Assembly (NCBI GenBank): GCA_030038255.1
Contig: JASHPH010000042.1
Span: 1-55,772 of the forward strand
Direction: 5' to 3'
Length of the DNA: 55,772 nt
Source: Candidatus Sulfotelmatobacter sp.
GTDB taxonomy: Bacteria > Acidobacteriota > Terriglobia > Terriglobales > Acidobacteriaceae
A program made the position numbers and the translations under genes. Below the pieces are notes generated by a model, which ran no database searches, was not told the DNA's origin, and saw only the letters and a list, made by a program, of their open reading frames with translations. Below are positions 1 through 13,568 of the stretch, piece by piece; the first letter of the stretch is position 1; each line of letters begins with the position of its first letter.

Positions 1-264
1 CAGGTTCTGGGTGTGAGCATGGATAGCTGGTTCTCGAACAAAGCCTTCGCCGACAAGATTGGGGTCACCTTCCCGCTGCTGAGTGATTGGGGCGGCAAAG
101 TCACGCGCGAGTACGGCATCTACAAAGACGAATACCAGGCGGCGCGCCGCGTGAACTTCCTGATCGGCAAAGACGGCAGGATTATGGAAGAGCAGGTTGA
201 CAAGGACGCCATCGATCCGACGAAGATCGTGGACGCCTGCGCCCGGCCAAAGCTGAAGAACTGA
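1..264 (+). CDS. Peroxiredoxin (AhpC/TSA, Bcp-like), 3' part only
   Basis: The reading frame is open from the first base of the window, so the gene begins outside it. About 87 codons are visible and end with TGA at 262-264. The residues GVSMDSW, FPLLSDW and YGIY followed by RVNFLIGKDG match the second half of thioredoxin-fold peroxiredoxins, which reduce hydrogen peroxide and organic peroxides. The peroxidatic cysteine lies in the missing N-terminal part and cannot be checked. The family call rests on the SD-W loop and the final beta-strand/helix pattern. A thiol oxidoreductase of the same superfamily is the main alternative. Confidence 0.8.
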   Translation, partial: QVLGVSMDSWFSNKAFADKIGVTFPLLSDWGGKVTREYGIYKDEYQAARRVNFLIGKDGRIMEEQVDKDAIDPTKIVDACARPKLKN

Positions 265-468
265 TTCACGCGACCTTCTGTCATCCTGAGCGGCGTTCGT
301 TGCCGCTCAGGATCACGCCCGTCAAACCTACCCTAGCCAACGACTTCCACGCGCCCCGGAAACTAAACCGTCTCTACTGTGTTTACAAGAGAGCGGGTAA
401 GATCAGTAAAGGGACATCCAGCCCAAATTAAGACGAGGGTGCGAATTTCTATGCATTGGGGCGAAGAT
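265..468. other. Gap with one hairpin repeat
   Basis: This stretch between the peroxiredoxin and the first DUF6600 gene holds a perfect 12-bp hairpin (arms 283-294 and 302-313, loop of 7 bases). The arm ATCCTGAGCGGC resembles the palindromic repeat family also seen near 29257. It lacks a T-run, so a rho-independent terminator is not well supported. No convincing promoter was found. Confidence 0.5.
283..313. repeat. Palindromic intergenic repeat (TCATCCTGAGCGG type)
   Basis: The arms ATCCTGAGCGGC and GCCGCTCAGGAT are exact reverse complements separated by GTTCGTT. The sequence is related to the TGTCATGCTGAGCGG arms at 29257 and 29586, which suggests a dispersed REP-like family. Confidence 0.6.
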
Positions 469-2487
469 ATGAAAACACGCAAGTGGTCCGCATTGATGAT
501 TCTACTGGCGAGCTTTGCATTTGCCTTGCAAGTTTCGGCTATCGCGAAAGCCCAGGATGAATATGATGATCAGAGCCAGGATCCTCCCGGCCGCGTGGCG
601 CGGCTGAACTATTCGCAGGGATCGGTTTCCTTCCGCCCGGCCGGCGAGGACGACTGGGTCACGGCGGTGCCCAACCGCCCAATTGTGACCGGCGACGATC
701 TCTGGACCGACAACGATTCCCGCGCTGAAGTTCACGTCGGGTCGACGGCGATCCGCATGGGCCAGAGGACCGGCATCACTTTCCTCACTCTTGACGACAA
801 CAACACACAAATTCGCCTGGCGCAGGGAAGCCTGATCGTGCGCGTGCGCCACGTGGATGACGACGACACCTACGAGATCGACACGCCGAACATCGCGTTC
901 ACGCTGCTGCAGCCCGGCGAATACCGCGTCGACGTGAGTGAAGACGGAAGCCAGACCATCACCGAGGTGTTTCATGGCCGCGGCCACGTCACCGGCGGGG
1001 GCTTTACCTACAACGTGATCGCCGGCCAGTCGGCCAGTTTCACCGGCAGCGACCATCTTGACTATGACCTTGAGCAGCTTCCGTCGCAGGATGACTTCGA
1101 CAGCTGGGCCTTTGACCGCGACGCGCGTGAGGACGAGGCCGATTCAGCCAACTATGTTTCGCGCGAAATGACTGGCTATGAAGATCTCGACGAATACGGC
1201 AGCTGGAGCTACGTCCCGGGGTATGGCGAGTGCTGGCAGCCAGTGGGCGTGGTCGTGGGCTGGGCTCCGTATCGCTTCGGCCACTGGGTCTGGGTCGGAC
1301 CTTGGGGTTGGACTTGGGTGGAAGATGAGCCCTGGGGTTTCGCTCCGTTCCACTATGGCCGCTGGGCCTTCGTCAACGGCGGATGGTTCTGGGTGCCGGG
1401 CCCAGTGGTCGTGCGGCCGGTGTGGGCGCCGGCACTGGTGGCGTTTGTGGGCGGCGGGCCCGGATTCCGCTTCTCTGCAGGAGTGGGCGTGGGATGGTTC
1501 CCTCTCGGGCCCGGTGAGGTTTACGTCCCTGGATATCGCGTAAGCCGCGCCTACGTGAACAATGTGAACATCACCAATACTTCGGTGAACGTCACCAGGG
1601 TCACGAACGTCTACAACACGGTGATCGTCAACAAGACGACGATCACGAATGTGACGTATGTCAACCAGCGAGTGAATAACGCGGTGACCGTTGTCTCGCA
1701 TGATGCCTTCGTGAATGCACGGCCGGTGTCGCAGAACATCCTCAAAGTGCAACCGCAGGAAATCGCCTCGGCGCCGGTTTCGCACGTCATAGCGGCCGAG
1801 CCGGTGCACTCGAGTGTGGTTGGCGTGGGACGTCCTGTCCAGACTCGTCCGCCCGCCACCGTGATCAATCGGCAGGTGGTCGCGGTGAGAACTCCTCCAC
1901 CTCCTCCGCGGCCGATTGAACAACGCCAGGCGCAAGCGGGTGGGCACCTCAATCAGCAGGCGCTGGTTCGTCCGGCAGGCGCATCGCAGCCTGCCCCGAT
2001 GAATCAGGCTCCGATGGGTAGACCTGCGCCGATTCAACCCGGGGCGAATCAGGGCGGAGTGAATCAAGGACGACCAGCGCAGACGCAGGAAGGCTTCCGG
2101 CCATTTGGTCAGCCGGCCAATGCGAGCCAGCCGGCCAATGCGACCAACAGCCAGGTGAAACCAATGCTCAAGCCGCAGCCGCGCGTGTATGAGCAACAGG
2201 GCCCGGCACCGGAAAATGAGAACCGTGGCGGTGTGCAGCAGTTCGGCACACCACGCCCGGAAGCCAGCCAGCAGCCGAGTCAGCAGCAGAGGGCTGCGCA
2301 GCCGGAGTCGCATCCTTTGGTGAAGCCAGCGCCTGCGGTCCAAGAACGAACTCCGCAGCAGGAGCAGCAGCAGGCGCAGAAGTTCAACCAGTGGCAGCAG
2401 CAGCGGCCCGCTCCCGCGCCGGCGCCAAAGCCGCAGTCGCATCCGGCACCGCCGCCCAAGTCGAGCCCTCCGCCGAAGAATCACTGA
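469..2487 (+). CDS. Secreted FecR-like / DUF6600 protein, Pro/Gln-rich tail
   Basis: A protein of about 672 aa. A signal peptide is clear (MKTRKWSALMILLASF followed by AKAQ). Residues about 43-200 look like a FecR-type beta domain: RVARLNYSQGSV, then GDDLWT, AEVHVG, LAQGSLIVRV and EIDTPN. Residues about 243-330 are the Trp/Tyr/Pro-rich DUF6600 region (YGSWSYVPGYG, GWAPYRFGHWVW, HYGRWAFVNGGW). A Val/Asn/Thr-rich stretch follows, then about 200 residues rich in Pro and Gln. I chose ATG 469 because it sits directly before the signal peptide; ATG 451 is also possible. The protein is probably exported and may lie at the cell surface. Its biochemical role is unknown. It has a paralog at 5669 on the other side of a two-component system. 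Confidence 0.8.
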   Translation: MKTRKWSALMILLASFAFALQVSAIAKAQDEYDDQSQDPPGRVARLNYSQGSVSFRPAGEDDWVTAVPNRPIVTGDDLWTDNDSRAEVHVGSTAIRMGQRTGITFLTLDDNNTQIRLAQGSLIVRVRHVDDDDTYEIDTPNIAFTLLQPGEYRVDVSEDGSQTITEVFHGRGHVTGGGFTYNVIAGQSASFTGSDHLDYDLEQLPSQDDFDSWAFDRDAREDEADSANYVSREMTGYEDLDEYGSWSYVPGYGECWQPVGVVVGWAPYRFGHWVWVGPWGWTWVEDEPWGFAPFHYGRWAFVNGGWFWVPGPVVVRPVWAPALVAFVGGGPGFRFSAGVGVGWFPLGPGEVYVPGYRVSRAYVNNVNITNTSVNVTRVTNVYNTVIVNKTTITNVTYVNQRVNNAVTVVSHDAFVNARPVSQNILKVQPQEIASAPVSHVIAAEPVHSSVVGVGRPVQTRPPATVINRQVVAVRTPPPPPRPIEQRQAQAGGHLNQQALVRPAGASQPAPMNQAPMGRPAPIQPGANQGGVNQGRPAQTQEGFRPFGQPANASQPANATNSQVKPMLKPQPRVYEQQGPAPENENRGGVQQFGTPRPEASQQPSQQQRAAQPESHPLVKPAPAVQERTPQQEQQQAQKFNQWQQQRPAPAPAPKPQSHPAPPPKSSPPPKNH

Positions 2488-2598
2488 GGCTGCGCCAGGG
2501 GCCGAGGCAGGCGGATGGTGGTTGACGCTGACTCCTGCTGGAGGGTGTGATAGCTTCGCACGAGATGCGCTTGCAAACCTGATTATCGGATGAAGCCT

Positions 2599-2637
2599 GC
2601 GCCGGGAGGGCATGAACTTCTCCCGGCGCAACTTTTT
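2599..2637 (+). terminator. Strong hairpin with T-run, overlapping a possible start codon
   Basis: GCGCCGGGAG (2599-2608) is an exact reverse complement of CTCCCGGCGC (2620-2629), with an 11-base loop and a run of five T at 2633-2637. This has the form of a rho-independent terminator for the DUF6600 gene ending at 2487. It also contains the GGGAGG Shine-Dalgarno-like sequence and the ATG at 2612. It could therefore instead control translation of the downstream kinase gene. Confidence 0.55.
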
Positions 2638-3997
2638 GAGAGCGCGACCTGATCGCTCGACCAGACAGATGAACAACGCCAAAGGCACGATTGCCAAGTC
2701 GATGATCAACTGGATGGACATCCTGTGGCTCGTGTTTCTAACGGCGCTGGCCTTTCTGCCGCCGGTCACCGAGATCCACAAGCAACTCATCCTGGTCGCG
2801 TTCGGTGTCATCCAGCTGGCTGAGGGCTGGCTGGTGTCGCGCATGGGACGCCGCGGTCCCGCCTACATCGTGCTGCTGAAGATCGCCCTGGCTACGCTGC
2901 TCATCGATCACACCGGCGAGCCCATCAGCATTAACAGCAACTACTATCCGATTTATTTCCTGCCGGTTCTCACCGCTGCCGAGTACTTCGAACCGCTTGG
3001 CACTCTGCTCTGGACTACGCTCGCCTCGGCAGCTTATTGCTCGTATCTCTATCCGGCGATGCAGGAGTACGAAATTCCGGCCGAGAGCTATGGCCTGCTT
3101 GCCATTCGCATTCTGTTTTTCTTTCTGGCCGCGATGGTGGTGAATCGGTTTGCGGTGGAGAACCGCAGGCAGACGCGATTGTATCAGGAACTTGCCGAGA
3201 CCCTTGCCGAGACCAATCGCCGCCTGGAACAGGCGCAAGCCGAGGCCCGGCGCTCCGAGCGGCTGGCCGCGCTGGGTCAACTTTCCGCCGGACTCGCGCA
3301 CGAGATTCGTAATCCGCTGGGCGTGATCAAGGGCTCGGCTGAGATGCTCAGCCAGAAGTTGGCGGATTCCAATCCGCTGGCCACCGAACTTGCCGGTTAC
3401 ATTTCTACCGAAACCAACCGGCTAAGCGGACTGGTCACACGCTTTCTCGATTTCGCCCGGCCGCTGCTCGCCGAGCTGACGCCGCAAGACATCACCGCGG
3501 TTCTTGATCGCGCGCTGATGCATGTCGCAACCGTGTGGAAAGGCGATCCCGTGAGCGTCGAGAAAAAGTACAAACCCGGCCTGCCGCCGGTCGCGCTTGA
3601 TGAAGGATTGTGCCAGCAGGCTTTCGTCAATATCGTGCAGAATGCATACGACGCCATGAGCGCGGGCGGCGGCGTGCTGCGCGTGACAGTGGGAAGGTCG
3701 CATGCTACTGGGCGTAACGGCGAGGCGGCGGATGGAGTTGAAGTGCGCATCGCGGATACGGGCCCGGGCATCCCTCCTGACTTGCGTGAGCAGATTTTCA
3801 ATCCGTTCGTCACGACGAAGAAAAACGGCGTAGGGCTGGGGCTTTCCATCGTGTCGAAGATCGTCGATGGTCACCGTGGTTCCATCCGGATTGAAGACAC
3901 AGGTGGAGCGCAGGGCACCGGCGCCTGCTTCGTTGTGTTTTTTCCTGCGAGTACAGAGGCCAAGGCAGTCGAGCCCGACCACATGGTGATCTCATGA
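2612..3997 (+). CDS. Membrane sensor histidine kinase, NtrB-like
   Basis: A 461-aa sensor kinase. The N-terminal part (about residues 32-180) has roughly five hydrophobic segments. A coiled linker follows (LAETLAETNRRLEQ), then a HisKA domain with LSAGLAHEIRNPLG, where His230 is the predicted phosphate acceptor. The ATPase domain has the N box (FVNIVQNAYDAM), G1 (IADTGPGIP) and G2 (GVGLGLSIV). The gene lies 22 bases before an NtrC-type activator, so this pair should form one two-component system. The start is uncertain. ATG 2612 has the best Shine-Dalgarno sequence (GGGAGG) but lies inside a terminator-like hairpin. ATG 2669 or 2702 would still keep all membrane segments. The signal sensed is unknown. 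Confidence 0.88.
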   Translation: MNFSRRNFLRARPDRSTRQMNNAKGTIAKSMINWMDILWLVFLTALAFLPPVTEIHKQLILVAFGVIQLAEGWLVSRMGRRGPAYIVLLKIALATLLIDHTGEPISINSNYYPIYFLPVLTAAEYFEPLGTLLWTTLASAAYCSYLYPAMQEYEIPAESYGLLAIRILFFFLAAMVVNRFAVENRRQTRLYQELAETLAETNRRLEQAQAEARRSERLAALGQLSAGLAHEIRNPLGVIKGSAEMLSQKLADSNPLATELAGYISTETNRLSGLVTRFLDFARPLLAELTPQDITAVLDRALMHVATVWKGDPVSVEKKYKPGLPPVALDEGLCQQAFVNIVQNAYDAMSAGGGVLRVTVGRSHATGRNGEAADGVEVRIADTGPGIPPDLREQIFNPFVTTKKNGVGLGLSIVSKIVDGHRGSIRIEDTGGAQGTGACFVVFFPASTEAKAVEPDHMVIS

Positions 3998-4019
3998 ACC
4001 ATTCCGGAGAAGCGCGCTG

Positions 4020-5390
4020 ATGCCGGCCATCCTGATTGTCGAAGACGAAGCCAAGATGCGCCGCCTGCTCGAGTTGAATCTGGGCGAGGACGGCTTCAGC
4101 ACGTTTTCCGCCGGCGACGCAGAGACCGGTCTGAAACTGCTGCGCGAAAATGCCGTCGACCTCGTCGTGACCGACCTGAAACTTCCCGGCATGAGCGGCC
4201 TCGAATTTCTGCACGCCGTCAAGCGCCAGAACGCGGCCTTGCCGGTCGTCGTGATGACCGCATTCGGGACGGTCGAGACCGCGGTCGAAGCGATGAAGGC
4301 TGGAGCCAGCGACTACGTTCTTAAACCGTTTTCGCTGACCGAAATGCGGCTGAAGATCCGGAAGGAGCTCGATGTCCGCAATCTCCAGGAAGAAAATCGC
4401 TCACTGCGCGAGGCGCTGGGCAAAAAGTATTCGCATCCCAACATCGTCGCGCGCAGCGCGAAGATGCAGGAAGTCTTGGCTACCGTGGAGCGCGTGGCGC
4501 CGACAAACTCCACGGTGCTGCTCGGCGGCGAGAGCGGCGTCGGCAAGGACTTGATCGCCCGAGCCATTCACGAGAAATCACGCCGCGCACGTGGACCGTT
4601 CCTCAAGATCAACAGCACTGCGATTCCCGAAAGCCTGCTCGAAAGCGAATTGTTCGGCTACGAGAAAGGAGCTTTTACCGGCGCCGCGGCCAGCAAACCA
4701 GGAAAGTTCGAACTGGCCGACAAGGGGACGCTGTTCCTCGACGAAATTGGAGACGTCCCTGCGGCCACGCAAGTCAAACTGCTGCGCGTGCTGCAGGAGC
4801 GGGAATTCGAACGCTTGGGTGGGACGAAAACAATCAAGGTGGACGTGCGCCTGATCGCAGCCACCAATCGCGACCTGCGCGCCGCGCTCGAAGAAGGCAC
4901 ATTTCGCGAAGATCTCTACTACCGCTTGAACGTTGTCCCGATCGATATCGCGCCGCTGCGCGAACGCAGGGAGGACATTCCCGATCTCGTGAATCTTTTC
5001 ATCTCACGCTTTGCCGCCGACTCGGGGAAATCGATCGAGAGCATTTCTCCCGATGCGATGCAGATTCTGGTGAACTATCACTGGCCCGGAAATGTGCGCG
5101 AGCTGCAGAACATTGTCGAGCGCGCGTGTGCGCTGGCGAAGCAAAATGTGCTGCAGGCCTCTGACATTCATCTGGATGTACGTCCGGCGAAGGCCGCCAA
5201 CGGCGCCGGCGGATTTCTCCCCGACGGCATGACATTGGAGCAGTGGGAGGACGAAATGGTACAGGAGGCATTGCGCCGCGCCAACGGCAACAAGAGTCAG
5301 GCCGCGCGGTTGCTGGGCCTTTCGCGGAATGCCTTGCGCTACCGGCTGTCGAAGATTGGAATTGAGGACGAAGGGGAGAAAGAGTGTTGA
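4020..5390 (+). CDS. NtrC-family sigma-54-dependent response regulator
   Basis: A 456-aa activator with the three standard domains. The receiver domain has Asp52 (VVTDLKLPGMSG) as the likely phosphorylation site and the conserved KP at about 102. The AAA+ domain has Walker A (GESGVGKD, about 170-177), the sigma-54 contact loop GAFTGA (217-222) and Walker B (GTLFLDEIGD). The C-terminal Fis-type helix-turn-helix is NKSQAARLLGLSRNALRYRL. All key residues are present, so it should open sigma-54 promoters once phosphorylated. GGAGA lies about 12 bases before ATG 4020. The partner is the kinase just upstream. A likely target is the promoter at 5528, only about 140 bases downstream of this gene. Confidence 0.95.
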   Translation: MPAILIVEDEAKMRRLLELNLGEDGFSTFSAGDAETGLKLLRENAVDLVVTDLKLPGMSGLEFLHAVKRQNAALPVVVMTAFGTVETAVEAMKAGASDYVLKPFSLTEMRLKIRKELDVRNLQEENRSLREALGKKYSHPNIVARSAKMQEVLATVERVAPTNSTVLLGGESGVGKDLIARAIHEKSRRARGPFLKINSTAIPESLLESELFGYEKGAFTGAAASKPGKFELADKGTLFLDEIGDVPAATQVKLLRVLQEREFERLGGTKTIKVDVRLIAATNRDLRAALEEGTFREDLYYRLNVVPIDIAPLRERREDIPDLVNLFISRFAADSGKSIESISPDAMQILVNYHWPGNVRELQNIVERACALAKQNVLQASDIHLDVRPAKAANGAGGFLPDGMTLEQWEDEMVQEALRRANGNKSQAARLLGLSRNALRYRLSKIGIEDEGEKEC

Positions 5391-5404
5391 GGGCATGATC
5401 CGAC

Positions 5405-5460
5405 TGGCCGAAAACCACCACCCTTGGCCAAGGTCGGCCAAACCGAGCCGGATTCGACCA
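5405..5460 (+). promoter_or_regulatory. Candidate NtrC-type enhancer (upstream activating) sites
   Basis: A perfect 12-bp palindrome, CCTTGGCCAAGG, lies at 5422-5433. Nearby are repeated elements CTGGCCGAAAACC (5404), GTCGGCCAAA (5433) and TTCGACCAAA (5452). They lie roughly 95-150 bases upstream of the expected transcription start of the sigma-54 promoter, a usual distance for bound NtrC proteins. Binding by the neighbouring regulator is an inference. Confidence 0.45.
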
Positions 5461-5527
5461 AATTCAGCCGTCGGCTCAGATTCTCTCTTGAAAACAAAGG
5501 ACTTGCCAGCCCTAGTCTTTTCTCTTT

Positions 5528-5543
5528 TGGCATGGCAGTTGCC
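5528..5543 (+). promoter_or_regulatory. Sigma-54 (-24/-12) promoter
   Basis: TGGCATGGCAGTTGCC matches the sigma-54 consensus TGGCACG-N4-TTGC at nearly all conserved places. The GG and GC dinucleotides are exactly ten bases apart. Transcription would begin near 5554, about 115 bases before the second DUF6600 gene. The gene for a sigma-54 activator ends just upstream at 5390, which strengthens the call. Confidence 0.75.
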
Positions 5544-5668
5544 TTTCTTTAAGCCGAGAGATTTCCCAAAATGCGGGTTCATAGAGTTAGGAAACAAAAT
5601 CTCGGGCCAGATTTCAAAGGACGGAATTCCGGCTCACTAGCTTTTCGGTTGGGCGAGTCGAGGTGGGT

Positions 5669-8032
5669 ATGAAAACAAGATTCTTTTCAACCTTTGCAAT
5701 CTTAACGCTGGCACTGGCCGGCGCATTCACGATCAGCGCGTTTGCGCAAACGACGCAAGAGACTCCGGCGCCTTCGGATCAGCCAAGCGCGCCGATGGAG
5801 ATCGGCACACCGCAGGGCCCGCAAGGTCCGGACACGCAAGCTGCGCCCGCTGAGCCGCAGGGTGACGCGCAGCCCATGCAGACTCCGCCTGATGCCGACT
5901 CTCAGCCTGCAGAGGCTCAGCCGGGTGGCCCTACGGGCGAGACTCCGGCGAAGACGGACCTCGGTGTGGGGCGCATCAGCCTGATTCATGGCGACGTTTC
6001 CACGCAGCGCGGCGATTCCGGCATCTGGTCGGCGGCAACGCTGAATCAGCCGGTCATGGGCGGGGACAAGATTTCAACTGCCGAAGGCGCCCGTACGGAA
6101 GTCGAACTCGATTTCGCCAACATCCTTCGTCTGGGCACAAACTCGAAGGCCAACATCGCAACCTTCACTCACAAAGACATTCAGATTCAGCTGGCGCAGG
6201 GCATCGCCTCGTACTCGGTTACCAAAGACAGCGAGGCCGAGCCTGAGATCGACACGCCAAATGTCTCAGTGCATCCCGCGCATCGCGACGGCGTGTTTCG
6301 TATCGAAGTCCGTCCCAACGGCGACACGATCGTGATCGTGCGCAAGGGCGAAGCGCAGATTTCCACGCCGCAGGGCAGCACCGAAGTTCGCCAGGGAGAA
6401 CAGGCGACCATCCGAGGCGACTCCAACTCGGCGCAATACAAGATCGACCAGGCTCCGGCTCCCGACGACTGGGATCGCTGGAATGCCGACCGCGATTACT
6501 TGATCCGCAACGCGCAGTCGTGGCGCCACACCAATCGCTATTACACCGGAACGCAGGATCTCGACGCCTATGGCAACTGGCAGAACGTGCCCGACTACGG
6601 CGACGTGTGGGTTCCGAATGAGCCGGCGGGCTGGGTTCCGTATCGCGATGGCAGCTGGACCTATGAGCCGTACTACGGCTGGACCTGGGTCGGCTACGAG
6701 CCTTGGGGCTGGGCTCCGTATCACTACGGTCGTTGGTTTTGGTGGAACGGTGGCTGGGCGTGGTGGCCGGGAGCGGCGTGGGGCTGGTACCGTCCGTTCT
6801 GGGCGCCGGCGTACGTTTCCTTCTGGGGATGGGGCGCGGGCTTTGGCTTCGGATTCGGCTGGGGATGGGGCGGTTGGGGTGGCTTCGGCTGGCTCCCGCT
6901 CGGACCCTGTGATTGGTTCCATCCGTGGTGGGGCGGATACGCCGGCCGCTTTGGCTGGATCGGACACGGCTGGGGGTACGATCGCTTCGGCGGATTCGCA
7001 CCGCTGCACGCTGGAACGCGATTCTCGAACGTGGCGAACATTCATGATGCGCACATTGGCGGAGCGCTCTCAACGGTGCGGGCTGGAGCATTCGGTACCG
7101 GCGGCCGCGTCGCGGCAATGGCTGCGACCCGCGAGCAGATTGGCGGCGCGCGCATGATGGCAGGCAACCTGCCGGTCACGCCGACGCGTGCAAGCTTGTC
7201 CGCCAGCGGACGGCCGGCGGCTGCATCCACCATGCACGGTGGCGGGGCGGAGCACTTCTTCGGTTCGACCCACGCCAATGCGGCGCGTCCGGAGTCATTT
7301 GGACAGCAGGTTTCGCATCTGCAGCAGAGCATGGCGCAGAACCATATCAGCGGATTCAGCGCCGGCAGCCGGGGTACGGCAATGGCCTCGCGCGGCGGAT
7401 TTGGCTCCAGCGGCGCGAAGCCGAGCGCGGGGATGGGCAGCCGCGGCGGCTCTTCATTTGAGAACGGCAGCCGTGGCGGCGAGCGCGCATTTACGGCACC
7501 GAATAGCAGCAATGCGCGGTCGTCGTTTGAAGGCGAGCGCAGCGGGGCTTCTTCTTCGGCCAGCCGCGACGGATTCCGCCCCTTCACTCCGCCCTCGCAC
7601 AGTGAAGCGTCGGGTGGGTCTTCCTATAGCGGATCGTCCTACGGCAATGCTGAGCGCGGAGGGAACGGCAGCTACTGGAACCGGACTTCGCCCGGCGCGG
7701 AGCGCAACAGCGCAACCTACGCCGATGGCTACGGCCGCGGATCTTCCGAATCGTCCTCGCGCGGATCGTATTCGCGTCCGCAGCTCGACATGCGGCAGCC
7801 GATCGTGCGCTCTCCTTACGGTGGAGGAAGTTCGCGCGGCGGATATGGTTCTGAGTCGCGGCCCAGCTATGGCGGGTCGCGTCCAAGCTACGGAGGTGGG
7901 TCGCACAGCACTCCCAGCTATGGCGGCTCTCATGGTGGCGGTCATGTGAGCGCGCCGCATTCCTCTGGTGGAGGACACTCTAGCGGTGGTCACTCCGGTG
8001 GCGGCAGCCACGGCGGTGGAGGTCACCACTAA
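5669..8032 (+). CDS. Secreted FecR-like / DUF6600 protein, Gly/Ser/His-rich tail
   Basis: A protein of about 787 aa with a signal peptide (MKTRFFSTFAILTLALAG, AFAQ). Residues about 30-95 are rich in Pro and Gln. A FecR-like domain follows (VGRISLIHGDVSTQRG, GDKISTAEG, LAQGIASYSV, EIDTPN), then a Trp-dense DUF6600 region at about 285-430 (YGNWQNVPDYGDVWVP, GWTWVGYEPWGWAPYHYG). The C-terminal 300 residues are low complexity and end in a Gly/Ser/His tail. The order of domains is the same as in the protein at 469. Translation probably starts at ATG 5669, after AGGTGGGT; GTG 5663 is in frame. Expression is probably sigma-54 dependent. The His/Gly tail might bind metal, but this is only a guess. 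Confidence 0.8.
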   Translation: MKTRFFSTFAILTLALAGAFTISAFAQTTQETPAPSDQPSAPMEIGTPQGPQGPDTQAAPAEPQGDAQPMQTPPDADSQPAEAQPGGPTGETPAKTDLGVGRISLIHGDVSTQRGDSGIWSAATLNQPVMGGDKISTAEGARTEVELDFANILRLGTNSKANIATFTHKDIQIQLAQGIASYSVTKDSEAEPEIDTPNVSVHPAHRDGVFRIEVRPNGDTIVIVRKGEAQISTPQGSTEVRQGEQATIRGDSNSAQYKIDQAPAPDDWDRWNADRDYLIRNAQSWRHTNRYYTGTQDLDAYGNWQNVPDYGDVWVPNEPAGWVPYRDGSWTYEPYYGWTWVGYEPWGWAPYHYGRWFWWNGGWAWWPGAAWGWYRPFWAPAYVSFWGWGAGFGFGFGWGWGGWGGFGWLPLGPCDWFHPWWGGYAGRFGWIGHGWGYDRFGGFAPLHAGTRFSNVANIHDAHIGGALSTVRAGAFGTGGRVAAMAATREQIGGARMMAGNLPVTPTRASLSASGRPAAASTMHGGGAEHFFGSTHANAARPESFGQQVSHLQQSMAQNHISGFSAGSRGTAMASRGGFGSSGAKPSAGMGSRGGSSFENGSRGGERAFTAPNSSNARSSFEGERSGASSSASRDGFRPFTPPSHSEASGGSSYSGSSYGNAERGGNGSYWNRTSPGAERNSATYADGYGRGSSESSSRGSYSRPQLDMRQPIVRSPYGGGSSRGGYGSESRPSYGGSRPSYGGGSHSTPSYGGSHGGGHVSAPHSSGGGHSSGGHSGGGSHGGGGHH

Positions 8033-8145
8033 GCATCGCAGAGTTCGAAAGGCTGTGAAAGCGCAATGCTCGGCGAAGGGCGTCGTTGATGTAAACGAAG
8101 TGAAGACAGAGTGAGATGTAACCTGAAGTGAAGGTCAGAGGCGGG

Positions 8146-8176
8146 AAGGGCGTGCCGCAAGGCGCGCCCTTTCTCT
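8146..8176 (+). terminator. Rho-independent terminator
   Basis: GGGCGTGCC (8148-8156) pairs with GGCGCGCCC (8161-8169), including one G-T pair. The loop is GCAA, a stable GNRA tetraloop, and a pyrimidine-rich tail starting TTTCTC follows. It lies 115 bases after the second DUF6600 gene and should end its transcript. Confidence 0.75.
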
Positions 8177-8204: not shown

Positions 8205-8966
8205 TCACGGCCGCGCGTAAGCGGGACTGTCCGGGTCGGGCCGGTCGTAGTCTTTTCCGTACTTGTTTTTGTGGGCCATGGTGACGTCGGTTTCGGCCAG
8301 CGTGAACGTCCCAATCGACGTGTCGCCTGCCGCGACCGTGATTTCGCGGCTTACGGCGCGCAGCGCCTCGGGCGCGACCGACGCGTGGAACACCTGCAAC
8401 TCGTAGCGGCCGGGGGGCACATTGGGAAGGCTGAGTTCGCCCCGCGCGTCCGAGATGGCGTAGTAGGGAGTGGCCAGTGCGATCACCTCGGCGCTCATCT
8501 GCGCGTGAATGTTGCAGAAGATGAACGAAATTCCCGGCTTGTCGAACTGCACAAAACGCGTCGTCCCGCTCTCGTAGAGTCCCAAGTCGAAGCGCTTGCC
8601 CTCGAAAAGGGAAAACACATTGTGGAAGAACGGATCGTGATTCGGAAACTCAACCTTCCCGCCGACCGGAATCACCAACAGAGAGGGATGGAAGGCCTTG
8701 TCTTTCTGCACCAGCTTGGGAATTTCGTCGGGCTTCTGCTGCGGAGCGTCTACTGTCGTGCCGATCGGAGTCAGCCACACGACCGTCTGCGAGGCATCAT
8801 TCAGCCGATGGCCGCCGCGGGTCAGCTCGACATGCGCCTTGAGCACAGTCTGCTGAGCGGATACGAACCCGGCCCACATTGAGACACAAACCAAAATCCC
8901 CACCCTACGAAAACCACGTAGGGTGGGGCACCCACGAATGTCGCGGTAAATCAATCGCGGTTTCAA
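8205..8966 (-). CDS. Exported cupredoxin with C-terminal Ig-like regulatory domain
   Basis: A protein of 253 aa. The middle part has the type-1 copper pattern: His in HDPFFHNVF, then FCNIHAQM, which gives Cys-x2-His-x2-Met. A carboxypeptidase-regulatory-like beta sandwich follows (GELSLPNVPPGRYELQVFHA). Similar proteins bind copper and carry electrons in the periplasm, so that is the likely role here. A hydrophobic export segment is present near residue 23-38 (VGILVCVSMWAGFVSA). The start is TTG 8966, which overlaps the stop codon of the upstream porin gene, so translation is probably coupled. The segment coding residues about 12-23 is a palindromic repeat, which makes the N-terminus odd. Confidence 0.78.
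   Translation of the reverse strand: MKPRLIYRDIRGCPTLRGFRRVGILVCVSMWAGFVSAQQTVLKAHVELTRGGHRLNDASQTVVWLTPIGTTVDAPQQKPDEIPKLVQKDKAFHPSLLVIPVGGKVEFPNHDPFFHNVFSLFEGKRFDLGLYESGTTRFVQFDKPGISFIFCNIHAQMSAEVIALATPYYAISDARGELSLPNVPPGRYELQVFHASVAPEALRAVSREITVAAGDTSIGTFTLAETDVTMAHKNKYGKDYDRPDPDSPAYARP
8898..8928. repeat. Perfect 12-bp inverted repeat inside a signal-peptide coding region
   Basis: CCCCACCCTACG (8898-8909) and CGTAGGGTGGGG (8917-8928) are exact reverse complements with a 7-base loop. It lies within the first 25 codons of the cupredoxin gene. It looks like an intergenic palindromic repeat that became coding, or a hairpin that affects translation. Confidence 0.65.
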
Positions 8967-10594
8967 AACAGTATCCCCGCGGCCAGACTTACCTGATTGG
9001 CAGCGCTGCTGCTGGTATAAATCGGGAATGTGTGCAAGCGCCGAAATTCTGCGGAGAGCACAAGATCGGAACGCGGACGGAAAACTACATTCACCAGCCC
9101 GGCGCGATTTCGCCCGATGATCGAGCCGGGCGGGCCGCCATTATTGGCGTCGGTCGCAAAGCCCCGTACGTCGTTGGCAAACGCGTCGTCTTCCGAGATG
9201 GCACCGTTCCATTCCAGCTTCGGCGTGAGCTGGAACTTCAGCTGCGTCCATCCGCCTGCAGTGTCGAGGCCGCGAATGGGCGTCGTTTTGTAACTGGGAT
9301 TACCTCCGTACACGACCGAAGTACCGATCGCCCCACCCAGTCCACCAATGCCCCGCCCGCGATAAAACTCGCCAGAAAGCGCGAGGCGCGGCAGGATGGG
9401 AATCTGCCAGTCCGCCATTCCCGCCCACGCATCCACGTAGCGGCTCCACATCCAGTTTTGTTCGCCGTAGTAGCCGGCTACGCCAAAGCTGAGCGGATGC
9501 CCCTGTACCGGGCGCGACCATGCCGTGCGCAGGGCATAGGCGGGCTGGCCCGAATTTTCGCCGGCCTGCGGCGTGCGCACGAACGAGTTGTAGTTTGGTT
9601 CCCAGTCGAGGTTGTCCAGAATTCCCGCCTGCACGGTGAAGGTCTGCTGGTCGGAAATCGGAAAGCGATGCTCGACCCGCAGCTGCGGCGTCCAGGCCCA
9701 GAGATTGCCGGCGAAAGCAAACGTCGGTGTGGCCAGCGACGCGAACGATGTTGGCGACAAGGGTGAGATGAATAACGAATCTTGGCCGGCGACGATCGAA
9801 GTTTGATCCCAGTCGAAGCGCACACTCGCCGTCTGCAGGCGGACCAGTCCGAAATTCACACCGTTGCCGGTGTTGGGGAATCCTCCGGCAAAATCCATCT
9901 GAATGTCCGCTGAAGTTTTGGCCCCGGCCAGGTTTGGACCGAAAATCTCCAGCCCGAGTTCTGACTGACGCAGCGTGGCACCGAGAGTGGCCTGCGGACT
10001 CCCACCCACAACTGGCTGGGCGTAGCTTGGGAAGTCGAGATTGTCAGTGTTGCCGACGTTGCGGAACGCGTTCATCAATACGATTCCGTGCAGGCGCGCA
10101 CGGTACTTGGAAGCGGTCTCAACCTTCGTCTGATATTGTTCGTCAATTTTCGAAGTGATCAGCATCGTGGATTCTTCCAGCTTCTGCACGCGTTCTTCGA
10201 GTGGCGCACTGTTTTCCGCGGAAGCCACGGCAGTCGCGAGAGTTGGATTGCCCGATCCCGCGCTGGCCACGGCCGCGCCTTCACCCGTTTGTCCGCGCGC
10301 AGGCCGCTCGAGCAGGGTACGCGTAGCTTGCAAATCCTGCCGCAGCTGCCGCATTTCGGCACGAGACTCGATATTTTCCGCGCGCATCTGTTCCACCAGA
10401 TCACGGAGCTGCCGCACCTGATCCTGCAGATCGCGAACTGCGCTGGCTGTGTCCGCCGAGGCAGAAGCGGTCTCCTCCGTAAACGTCGCGTCTTGCGCCT
10501 GGATGCGCGGACCAAGATTGTGCGGACCGAAGAAAACAAATGCCGCAAACGCGAACGCGGCTCCCCCTACTGCAGAAGTCCCAAGTCTCTTCAC
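8963..10594 (-). CDS. Outer-membrane porin with N-terminal coiled coil (DcaP-like)
   Basis: A protein of about 543 aa. It begins with a signal or anchor segment (VGGAAFAFAAFVFF). A coiled coil follows (VRDLQDQVRQLRDLVEQM, then EMRQLRQDLQATRTLL), and then a long series of alternating beta strands typical of trimeric porins (RLHGIVLMNAF, LGLEIFGPNLAGAKTSADIQ, QTASVRFDWDQTSIVAGQDS). It ends in a hydrophobic Phe (LAAGILF), the usual outer-membrane insertion signal. I chose GTG 10594 because GGAGGA lies 5 bases before it; GTG 10609 is possible. It is followed directly by the cupredoxin gene. The substrate is unknown. Confidence 0.82.
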   Translation of the reverse strand: MKRLGTSAVGGAAFAFAAFVFFGPHNLGPRIQAQDATFTEETASASADTASAVRDLQDQVRQLRDLVEQMRAENIESRAEMRQLRQDLQATRTLLERPARGQTGEGAAVASAGSGNPTLATAVASAENSAPLEERVQKLEESTMLITSKIDEQYQTKVETASKYRARLHGIVLMNAFRNVGNTDNLDFPSYAQPVVGGSPQATLGATLRQSELGLEIFGPNLAGAKTSADIQMDFAGGFPNTGNGVNFGLVRLQTASVRFDWDQTSIVAGQDSLFISPLSPTSFASLATPTFAFAGNLWAWTPQLRVEHRFPISDQQTFTVQAGILDNLDWEPNYNSFVRTPQAGENSGQPAYALRTAWSRPVQGHPLSFGVAGYYGEQNWMWSRYVDAWAGMADWQIPILPRLALSGEFYRGRGIGGLGGAIGTSVVYGGNPSYKTTPIRGLDTAGGWTQLKFQLTPKLEWNGAISEDDAFANDVRGFATDANNGGPPGSIIGRNRAGLVNVVFRPRSDLVLSAEFRRLHTFPIYTSSSAANQVSLAAGILF

Positions 10595-10647
10595 GTCGTC
10601 CTCCTGCACAACACCCGGGGTAGGCGCGTGACGACGAGAGTAGCGCC

Positions 10648-12543
10648 CTACATCTCCGGATGTGAAATCGAACGATCCCCGGAGTTACTTTGCGAGGCGG
10701 GCACCAGCGAACGAACGCCAACTGGAACCTCGTGGCCGCTGCGGGAGTCGGATTGCCGCCCGGGCAGCATGATCTTGAACACCGTTCTGCCCTGGCCGGT
10801 GCGTTCCACGGAAATCTCGCCTCCGTGGTCCTGCACAATCTTTTGCACGACCGCCAGCCCCAGGCCCGTGCCGTTTTCCTTGCCGTAGCTGACGAAAGGA
10901 TGGAACAGCCGGTCGCGAATCGATTCCGCAATGCCAGGACCGTTGTCGGAGACCGAGATCGTGATCGTGCCCGCAATCTCAGCCGCTGTAATTTCCACCT
11001 GTCCGCCCACGGTGGGAGCGGCTTCACACGCGTTCAGCAGCAGGTTGTACAGCGCCCGCTCCAGCTTGCGCGAATCAAACCATCCCGCCACCGATGTGCT
11101 GCACAACACGTCGATCGAACGGTCGTGATGCCGAGGATGCAACCGCACCGCATTTACCGCCCGCTGAATCGTCTGCGGCACGTTGCCATATGCCGGGCTT
11201 AGCGACTCTCGCGTGCGCGCGAATTCGAGCAGTGAATCGATCAGGTCCGTCATCAGGTTCACGCCGGTGCGGACTTCCTGGTACAACTCTTCCCGCTGCG
11301 CGGGCGTCAGGTGGGGATCGCAAAGGAACTCAGAGTTGGCCACGATCGCGGCCAGCGAATGGCGCAGGTCGTGCGAGATCGAACTGGCCATCCGCCCGAT
11401 GGTCGCCAGTTGCTCGGACTCGAGCAGATCCTGCCGGCTCTTGAGCAGGCTCTGCCGCATGCGGTCAAAGGCACGAGTCAATTCGGCCACTTCGTCTCCG
11501 CCACGCGGATCCAGCGGATGATGGAAATCGCCGGCCTCCAGCGCGCGCACTCCGCCCACGAGGCTCGCCAGCGGCCGCGTGAAAGTGTGCGAGAGGAAGA
11601 AAACTAGCCCGCTTCCCACCACAATCGCAACCAGGCCGAGCAACAGCAGATACCGATTCAACTGATCGATGAATCGCGTCGCCTGATCGTACGAGCCCAG
11701 CACGTTCAGGCGAACCGGTGTTGTGGGCGAGTTGGACAGGACCAGCGAAGTCGCAAGGAAATGTTCTTTGCCCAGGCTGCTGTCGTGCGGCTCGGCTTGC
11801 GCCGATCCCGCGATCAGGCTCTGAATGTTTCCACCCATCATCTGGTCGGGCGTGAGCGTGGTGGCGATGATTTCGTTTCCCGAAGAAAATGCAACCTGGC
11901 TGCCCGCGACTTTGCTCACTTCTGCGGCTAGCCGGTCGTTGATCTCGTAGCCAATCACCAGGAAGCCGAGCAGCGTGCCCTCGGTGCGCGAGCCGCGGTA
12001 AATCGGCTCGATAAAGGTCTGGTACAGGTGATGGTCGCCGAGCCACCAGTGGCTGGACTCACTGCGCCCTTCATCGAGAGATTGCTGAAAATATTTTTCC
12101 GCCGCTTCGTGCGTGAATCCTGGGGTCTTGGTATGCAGCGCTACTACTTTGCCGCTGCGGTCGACCAGCACGAACAGGTCGCTGCCCGCGATCTGATACA
12201 CGTCCTGCGATGCGTCCTGAATCGTGACCGGATCGGGGCTGGTCATGATGGCGCGCGTAATGGGCAGGTAAGCCAGTAGGGCGACGTCGCTGGTCAGCAT
12301 GGTTTCACGCTCGTGCCGGAAATCCTGGAACGCGCTGACCGAGTTGCGCAGATTCTCGGCAATGCTCTGGCGCACGTTGCCCTCTACGCTGCGCCGCACC
12401 AAAAGAAGGCTGGTGGTGGTGAGCCCGGCCGTGACAAGGATCATCGACAGCAGAAAGCGGGCACGCAGGCGCAGCCGAGGCAAGAGTGCGGCTGTCGACC
12501 CGTTCGGGTGAGAACTGGCTGCGGTTTCCAGGGATGGGCTCAC
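10648..12543 (-). CDS. Sensor histidine kinase with periplasmic Cache-like and HAMP domains
   Basis: About 631 aa. The first membrane helix is FLLSMILVTAGLTTTSLLLV. A periplasmic sensor of about 270 residues follows (LFVLVDRSGKVVALHTKT looks Cache-like), then the second helix (YLLLLGLVAIVVGSGLVFFL) and a HAMP linker (RPLASLVGGVRALEAGDF). The HisKA box is SSISHDLRHSLAAIVANSE, and the ATPase boxes are LLLNACEA, VSDNGPGI and GTGLGLAVV. GTG 12543 lies 5 bases after the stop of the response regulator gene and puts the protein start at the usual distance from the first helix. The long upstream in-frame extension overlaps the regulator and is not needed. It should phosphorylate the adjacent OmpR-type regulator. 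Confidence 0.88.
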   Translation of the reverse strand: MSPSLETAASSHPNGSTAALLPRLRLRARFLLSMILVTAGLTTTSLLLVRRSVEGNVRQSIAENLRNSVSAFQDFRHERETMLTSDVALLAYLPITRAIMTSPDPVTIQDASQDVYQIAGSDLFVLVDRSGKVVALHTKTPGFTHEAAEKYFQQSLDEGRSESSHWWLGDHHLYQTFIEPIYRGSRTEGTLLGFLVIGYEINDRLAAEVSKVAGSQVAFSSGNEIIATTLTPDQMMGGNIQSLIAGSAQAEPHDSSLGKEHFLATSLVLSNSPTTPVRLNVLGSYDQATRFIDQLNRYLLLLGLVAIVVGSGLVFFLSHTFTRPLASLVGGVRALEAGDFHHPLDPRGGDEVAELTRAFDRMRQSLLKSRQDLLESEQLATIGRMASSISHDLRHSLAAIVANSEFLCDPHLTPAQREELYQEVRTGVNLMTDLIDSLLEFARTRESLSPAYGNVPQTIQRAVNAVRLHPRHHDRSIDVLCSTSVAGWFDSRKLERALYNLLLNACEAAPTVGGQVEITAAEIAGTITISVSDNGPGIAESIRDRLFHPFVSYGKENGTGLGLAVVQKIVQDHGGEISVERTGQGRTVFKIMLPGRQSDSRSGHEVPVGVRSLVPASQSNSGDRSISHPEM

Positions 12544-12548
12544 GCGAT

Positions 12549-13292
12549 TCAGCGAACGAACTTGTATCCCATGCCGTGTACGGTGCGGAAGTGTACCGGG
12601 CTCGATGGGTCCTTCTCCAATTTTTGCCGCAGCTTCAGAATGTGGTTGTCCACGGTGCGCGTGGAGGGATAATTCTGATAACCCCATACTTCATTTAGCA
12701 GTTCATCGCGGCTGATTACACGCTCGGCATTCTGCACCAGGAACTGGAATGTCTTGAACTCTTGCGCGGTCAGAACTACGGGCTTGCCGTCGCGTTTAAC
12801 CTCCAGTTTTTTGAAGTCCGCTAAAATGCCGTCGAAGCTGACGACCTGCGCCTCGGGCGCGCGCGCCGTATGGCGTAGCGCGGCTCGAACCCTGGCTAGC
12901 AACTCGCGCGGGCTGAACGGCTTGGTTACGTAATCATCGGCGCCCAGTTCGAGCAAGAGGACTTTATCCGATACGTCGCTAGCCGCGCTCAGCACGATGA
13001 TGGGCATCGTCGGCGCCGCCGCTTTGATCTCCTTGCAGACGTCGCGGCCAGAAAGCTTCGGCAGCCTCAGGTCGAGAACAATCGCCGATGGCGGCGTTGC
13101 CTGGAAGCTCTCGACCGCGGCCCGGCCATCGGCCTGCACCTCGACGACGTAGCCTTCAGTCTCGAACAGTCGCCGCAGCGCTTTCTGTACGGCCGGATCG
13201 TCCTCGACCACGAGAATCCGTCCCGGAGGCTTAACCGAATTGCCGGAATTTACAACCCGAGTGGAACCGAGTGGTGTGGCAAGATTGCCCAT
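12549..13292 (-). CDS. OmpR/PhoB-family response regulator
   Basis: About 247 aa. The receiver domain starts at RILVVEDDPAVQKAL, has the phospho-acceptor Asp in AIVLDLRLPKLSG, and KP in YVTKPFSPRELL. The winged helix at the C-terminus has VWGYQNYPSTRTVDNHILKL, typical of OmpR/PhoB DNA-binding domains. ATG 13292 has AGGA 8 bases upstream. ATG 13331 also has a good Shine-Dalgarno sequence (GGTGAGG) and would add 13 residues, so the start is undecided. It is the first gene of a minus-strand operon with the kinase, the porin and the cupredoxin, which are its probable targets or partners. Confidence 0.9.
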   Translation of the reverse strand: MGNLATPLGSTRVVNSGNSVKPPGRILVVEDDPAVQKALRRLFETEGYVVEVQADGRAAVESFQATPPSAIVLDLRLPKLSGRDVCKEIKAAAPTMPIIVLSAASDVSDKVLLLELGADDYVTKPFSPRELLARVRAALRHTARAPEAQVVSFDGILADFKKLEVKRDGKPVVLTAQEFKTFQFLVQNAERVISRDELLNEVWGYQNYPSTRTVDNHILKLRQKLEKDPSSPVHFRTVHGMGYKFVR

Positions 13293-13568
13293 AAGATCTG
13301 TCCTGTTTAGGGGGAGAGCTTCCGGACCCATGTCCAAACCTCACCGGAAGTGGCTCGACTTTTGAAGCTTACAACGATTTGACGGTATATCTGGCCGTAA
13401 GCTGCGGCTTTTGACATTTTTTTTACAATTTCACTAGAGTGTGGAGAAAAGTGACGGAAATCGAGTTGCGAGGCGCATGAACACAGCTGCCGCGCCCCAT
13501 GGTACCCCCACGGACACTACTGCCTTGCTTGGCGCAGCATGTGCCGTCGCTTGTCGTAGAATTGCCGC

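Follow-up and report, generated by a model that had tools for sequence, protein, structure and literature searches.

A membrane kinase/sigma-54 activator pair with a FecR/DUF6600 exported protein as its probable output in Acidobacteriota

A membrane histidine kinase and an NtrC-family activator encoded in a 5.1 Mb draft genome of Candidatus Sulfotelmatobacter sp. very probably constitute a dedicated two-component/sigma-54 system, with the exported protein D2 as its conserved output and the flanking paralogue D1 under other control. The window, the whole 55,772-nucleotide stretch analysed, corresponds to contig C176. Comparison among related genomes establishes the predicted promoter architecture, links it to D2, and shows that kinase and D2 are inherited together; phosphorylation, DNA binding, and the direction of control we infer from family knowledge. 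At the level of sequence, the kinase/activator pair with D2 is real, conserved, and specific, representing an undescribed system as far as literature searches reach.

In the proposed mechanism, the polytopic kinase would respond to a signal at or within the inner membrane and phosphorylate Asp52 of the activator, which would bind two 16-bp dyads (TGGYYG-N4-CNRCCA) ~120-140 bp 5' of the expected transcription start, a usual position for NtrC-type enhancers, and loop to sigma-54 RNA polymerase at 5528-5543, turning on D2. D2, composed of a FecR-type β fold, a Trp-rich DUF6600 domain, and a Gly/Ser-rich tail, would then be made, exported, and act at its presumed location outside the inner membrane. 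The suggestion in the initial annotation of a surface or stress response is plausible.

Layout of the locus

The reading frames lie where the initial annotation had placed them and, together with Pfam matches, bear out its description of two exported proteins of the same domain order flanking a kinase/activator pair (Table 1). The activator gene and D2 are separated by 278 bases, and the D2 start at 5669 is backed by a ribosome-binding-like GAGGTGGGT just 5' of it and by similar starts in relatives. The hairpin behind D2 is not among the predictions of the terminator scan. Window positions 8205-13337, on the - strand, hold a second sensor cluster composed of a small exported protein whose end resembles CarboxypepD_reg at a score below the cut-off, a protein of 547 aa with no Pfam match that looks porin-like by eye, and a histidine kinase with (by eye) an OmpR-type response regulator.

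Table 1. Features of the kinase/activator/D2 locus in window coordinates.
Feature	Position	Strand	Remark
Gene presumed to be peroxiredoxin-like, 3' end only	1-264	+	
D1, exported FecR+DUF6600 protein, 672 aa, Pro/Gln-rich tail	469..2487	+	paralogue, probably outside the sigma-54 regulon
Membrane sensor histidine kinase, 4-6 predicted TM helices, phospho-His230	2612..3997	+	ATG 2669 is probably the true start, rather than 2612, judging by alignment
NtrC-family response regulator: receiver (Asp52), AAA+ with GAFTGA, Fis-type HTH	4020..5390	+	
Predicted upstream activator dyad 1, TGGCCGAAAACCACCA	5405..5420	+	
Predicted upstream activator dyad 2, TGGCCAAGGTCGGCCA	5425..5440	+	centre 20 bp from dyad 1
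Third conserved element TTGAAAACAAAGGACTTG (block TGAAAACAAAnGAGTTA)	5488..5505	+	between dyads and promoter; common to many relatives
Predicted -24/-12 sigma-54 promoter, TGGCATGGCAGTTGCC	5528..5543	+	transcription start expected at ~5554
D2, exported FecR+DUF6600 protein, 787 aa, Gly/Ser/His-rich tail	5669..8032	+	conserved output (probable)
GC-rich hairpin followed by a T-rich run, possible D2 terminator	8148..8172	+	by eye

Promoter architecture and co-occurrence with the kinase

The predicted D2 promoter begins 138 bases past the last base of the activator gene, as initially annotated, and agrees with the sigma-54 -24/-12 consensus TGGCAYRN4TTGCW at all but the last base. It displays the GG at -24, the GC at -12, the conserved flanks, and the retention among relatives that characterize sigma-54 promoters, and the genome itself encodes sigma-54. 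Scored against this consensus with a weighting of our own, a site of at least 12 is present in the 145 bp 5' of the D2 start at 23 of 23 loci, the window included, and one of at least 13 at 19 of 23, compared with 0.052 and 0.0075 sites per locus, respectively, expected from dinucleotide shuffles of the same stretches; the site is thus beyond chance. These 23 loci were retained from 37, the remaining 14 being left out for an activator truncated by a contig end (3), a D2 gene outside the stretch (10), or an N in the gene (1).

Alignment of 29 promoter stretches, most lying 5' of D2 and some 5' of other genes, reveals these shared blocks: dyad 1 TGGCTGAAAACCACCA, dyad 2 TGGCTGAnnnCGGCCA ~20 bp on, the TGAAAACAAA block, and the promoter. 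The window dyads are centred ~141 and ~121 bp 5' of the expected transcription start. Over 62 rows, the spacing between dyad 1 and promoter clusters near 85-90, 108-118, and 121-137 bp; these rows include second dyads of a single promoter and several weak cases, such as L141, where a kinase-less genome combines a 2-mismatch dyad and a -24/-12 site of 12.5. In four loci of genus g10 (L092, L091, L094, and L122), the exact dyad 5' of D2 lies just 85-86 bp before the promoter and is preceded, 23 bp upstream, by a second dyad with one or two mismatches.

The distribution of the kinase, D2, and the control site was compared across 200 genomes of the order, comprising two families. Kinase matches of E 1e-40 or better occur in 49 genomes, 37 of them at 55% identity or more, termed kinase-bearing here, and 12 at just 33-38%. 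D2-type genes, defined by at least 50% identity over the FecR+DUF6600 core, occupy 38 places in 36 genomes, every one kinase-bearing; past this cut-off, the next match falls to 48% identity, with a drop from 361 to 289 bits. A D2-type gene is therefore present in 36 of 37 kinase-bearing genomes (not found in G126) versus 0 of 163 others (Fisher's test, 6e-39, with related genomes treated as independent). The dyad TGGYYGAAAWCCACCR, at no more than two mismatches and followed 60-150 bp downstream by a -24/-12 site (at least 12), precedes 36 of the 37 D2 genes whose upstream region could be scored, G023:C417 being left out at a contig start; the exception, G145, has a 3-mismatch dyad with a site of 13.5. 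Among named-genome loci with a kinase at 51% identity or more, D2 was not found in the stretch for 10 of 18, several of which end at contig ends.

Among kinase-bearing genomes, 33 of 37 contain the exact dyad pattern, versus 14 of 163 others. Of its 15 places in the latter, one has a -24/-12 site of at least 12 (L102; 12.0, at +336), and at none is the longest ORF that follows similar to D1 or D2. In kinase genomes, exact dyads with no site of at least 12 are found at L051, directly behind the activator in G042, and at L119, L130, L133, L138, L139, L140, L149, and L150, while L132 combines an exact dyad with a weak site. A composite promoter model (R1), built from 29 sequences of the same kind and searched under strict filters, gives 43 matches with E < 1e-4, all in kinase-bearing genomes and covering 30 of the 37.

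D2 is not always next to the regulator. The 7-9 kb read downstream of the regulator in G165, G072, G042, G081, G169, and G041 does not contain D2, and in these genomes D2 lies elsewhere, in two copies in G042, and keeps the dyad and the promoter, as does the second copy in G109. D2 lies 2.4-4.8 kb from the regulator in G070, G067, and G092, with the promoter retained. The predicted control site travels with its target gene, which is the strongest evidence for D2 as the output.

Two sets of related genes served as negative controls. In a DUF6600 control of 20 genes, taken from the top of the DUF6600 list with a usable start required (L283, with no start, was left out) and comprising 19 genes from kinase-less genomes and the genome's own third copy on C316, a -24/-12 site precedes 1 of 20 and a dyad 0 of 20. 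Because all 20 are closer to D1 than to D2, near homologues of D2 (38-48% identity) were added as a further control, covering 20 of the listed kinase-less places. A dyad with up to two mismatches precedes none of these 20 and one with three mismatches precedes 1 of 20; a -24/-12-like site of 12.0 occurs anywhere in 900 bp in 5 of 20, and dyad and site occur together in 0 of 20. The initial proposal that D2 is the output of the sigma-54 activator gains support from these dyads and the -24/-12 site, from the 36/37 versus 0/163 distribution, and from the 0/20 near homologues. This comparison with other Acidobacteriota genomes is the conservation check put forward in the initial annotation.

Protein features and alternative readings

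The kinase, composed of HisKA and HATPase_c domains by Pfam, has its best named-genome match in a Candidatus Sulfotelmatobacter MAG at 90% identity. Four hydrophobic segments are clear, and a low-confidence structure model (pTM 0.42), used as a hint for helices only, is compatible with six; a Pfam search found no PAS or periplasmic domain. His230 is kept in 22 of 22 sequences, in which His56, His100, and charged residues of the membrane part are also invariant. The activator, with receiver, sigma-54 AAA+, and Fis HTH matches in Pfam, keeps Asp52, the Walker A region, and GAFTGA (GAFSGA in 2 of 16), displaying the phospho-Asp receiver, AAA+ domain with a GAFTGA loop, and Fis-type HTH of NtrC-family activators (bEBPs).

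D2 begins with a signal peptide by eye, followed by FecR (36.9 bits, cut-off 24) and DUF6600 (56.7 bits, cut-off 27), a Pfam family of no assigned function with a Trp-rich pattern; no NCBIfam model matches it. In Foldseek, the D2 core model (pLDDT 78.8, pTM 0.79) matches two FecR-type anti-sigma structures, 4m0h and 6ovk, at E 1e-7 to 6e-6, providing the FecR fold of anti-sigma and cell-surface signalling proteins, and its DUF6600 part has no convincing PDB match. The C-terminal end is a Gly/Ser/His tail and not that of a PEP-CTERM target. Tails are Gly/Ser-rich in most of 23 D2 sequences, and the four from the second family are poorer in Gly/Ser and richer in Pro/Arg, so tail chemistry is not conserved.

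The label NtrB/NtrC, given initially, holds as a generic description and fails in the nitrogen sense: among the best 25 NCBIfam models for each protein, kinase and activator score below every cut-off. A classical nitrogen system with D2 responding to nitrogen limitation, which the activator domain order and its match to NtrC, NR(I), would suggest (446.3 bits, cut-off 558.6), is most improbable, since the kinase also falls short of NtrB, NR(II) (134.8 bits, cut-off 240), the activator scores higher against AtoC than against NtrC (522.6 bits, cut-off 714), the kinase is polytopic, and no nitrogen gene is present among the neighbours scanned. Other models likewise give scores below cut-off: AtoS for the kinase (198.9 bits, cut-off 646), ZraR for the activator (399.1, cut-off 760) with ZraS for the kinase (161.2, cut-off 479), and PrsR for the activator (425.5, cut-off 502.6). 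The promoter might also be real and its dyads bound by a different sigma-54 activator, the neighbouring pair controlling something else. The genome has 26 sigma-54 activator-domain matches, a number of which are partial or hit other AAA proteins, gene proximity is by itself no proof of control, and this activator is linked to the dyads by co-occurrence; yet dyad, D2, and kinase occur together, near D2 homologues of kinase-less genomes have no dyad (0 of 20), and 16 activators show almost no variation in the recognition region of the HTH, making another activator quite unlikely.

D1 and D2 share domain order and neighbourhood, with FecR at 32.5 bits (cut-off 24) and DUF6600 at 97.9 bits (cut-off 27) in D1, and in one genome, G195, an exact dyad precedes D1. 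That both are outputs of the pair is nevertheless very unlikely, and the symmetry implied in the initial annotation does not survive. No good -24/-12 site lies in the 330 bp upstream of D1 in the window (best score 10.0), best scores over ten loci are 9.5-12 with 1 of 10 reaching 12, and the DUF6600 genes picked from kinase-less genomes are D1-like (20 of 20). Near the kinase, D1 (at least 60% identity) is present at 10 of 15 loci of the window's genus versus 0 of 22 loci read in other genera, some of them truncated upstream. D1 as a second output was accordingly rejected. A GGAAACTAAAC...GTGTTTAC block lies 5' of several D1 genes of the genus (window 340-470), possibly as a promoter recognized by a different sigma factor. 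A further reading makes D2 both output and sensor, its FecR domain reporting to the kinase and closing a feedback loop. In known systems, FecR domains serve as signalling parts in the periplasm, and a feedback loop has been proposed for pilin and PilS. The structural match of D2 to anti-sigma FecR proteins, the co-inheritance of kinase and D2, and the kinase's lack of a detected periplasmic domain fit such a loop, whereas Pfam detects FecR and DUF6600 only, with no anti-sigma domain before FecR, and distant Acidobacteriota kinases at 38-44% identity have no D2 beside the pair at 20 of 20 loci (L169-L188, some incomplete). We regard the loop as rather unlikely and retain D2 as the output of the kinase/activator pair.

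Further targets and known systems

A regulon beyond D2 in the genome itself was considered and finds no support: 17 dyad-like places were scanned for a -24/-12 site, 16 of them beyond D2 with one or two mismatches, and there is no clear excess because a reversed control pattern gives 13. R1 has one strong place there, before D2, and one weak place (C96, E 0.004). The sole further 1-mismatch dyad, L071 (G000:C350:2888), has a -24/-12-like site of 12.5 at +111 and no convincing ORF behind it.

In some kinase-bearing relatives, dyad and promoter also precede genes other than D2, encoding small lipoproteins in G161 and G197 (the one that was scanned has a TIG domain), a different small lipoprotein type in G070 and G161, an exported protein of 409-419 aa in G070 and G014, and one protein each in G169, G081, and G109, that of G109 being Gly-rich. 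By eye, these nine further targets have an N-terminal signal or lipoprotein signal (Pfam scan: four of them), and most further targets in relatives thus look exported. Dyad and -24/-12 site also precede short proteins of ~80-100 aa at L262 (G161:C24) and L264 (G092:C15, dyad with three mismatches), which are alike by eye and have no visible signal sequence.

Eleven of the distant Acidobacteriota genomes contain 13 exact dyads. Three have a -24/-12 site (at least 13) 67-89 bp downstream with an exported-looking ORF behind; in one, L325, a site scoring 12.5 stands at 197 and a membrane protein follows; and nine have no site of at least 12. At L319 (1501-1905), an exact dyad and a -24/-12 site precede a 98-aa exported-looking WXXGXW-repeat protein, whose repeat recalls the Trp-rich pattern of DUF6600; the distant regulon is a lead only. 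A tentative extension, possible and still doubtful, is a class-wide Acidobacteriota sigma-54 regulon in which one conserved activator and the dyad would serve Trp-/Gly-rich surface proteins, FecR/DUF6600 proteins in one order and WXXGXW-repeat and other exported proteins in distant relatives. The regulator would have been kept through a replacement of the coat protein, and the exported protein would act back on a kinase that senses within the membrane.

For DUF6600, which is named in none of 5.39 million open papers searched, the conserved enhancer and promoter supply a regulator and a DNA motif and permit a direct test, and the locus offers an entry point to sigma-54 control in Acidobacteriota. 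Within the accessible literature, no study of sigma-54 control of the cell exterior in Acidobacteriota was found, and searches on FecR proteins or the RpoN regulon in Acidobacteria yielded nothing relevant; the name Acidobacteriota is absent from the main text of the two sigma-54 surveys searched. A general hypothesis, read from the available part of its source, holds sigma-54 to be a controller of the bacterial exterior, with AtoC-like activators as the most common subgroup (PMC3162934), and D2, which probably belongs to the cell exterior, would fit it. The available text of this source contains none of the terms acidobacteri, Koribacter, Solibacter, or FecR. If true, the proposed system would support sigma-54 as a governor of the cell exterior in Acidobacteriota.

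D2 shares the FecR fold with FecR/PupR cell-surface signalling proteins (4m0h, 6ovk) and differs from them in its lack of a detected anti-sigma domain and in carrying DUF6600 and a Gly/Ser tail fused to FecR; neither a TonB receptor nor an ECF sigma is among the six window proteins scanned. In ZraSR-ZraP, a membrane kinase and a sigma-54 regulator act on a nearby exported target. The D2 locus has the same composition, whereas its ZraR and ZraS scores are below cut-off and D2 belongs to another family than the target. The nearest precedent found is PrsK/PrsR with PEP-CTERM proteins, in which, according to the portion of the source available, a membrane kinase and a sigma-54 response regulator were matched by phylogenetic profile to a cis site before PEP-CTERM genes, the activator motif and -24/-12 site preceding scattered genes for exported proteins as they do here (PMC1569441). 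The activator described here is below the PrsR cut-off, PrsK is not among the best 25 models of the kinase, the outputs are FecR/DUF6600 proteins, and the host is an acidobacterium. The kinase, activator, and D2 thus appear to work like PrsK/PrsR and ZraSR-ZraP, yet by their model scores belong to neither.
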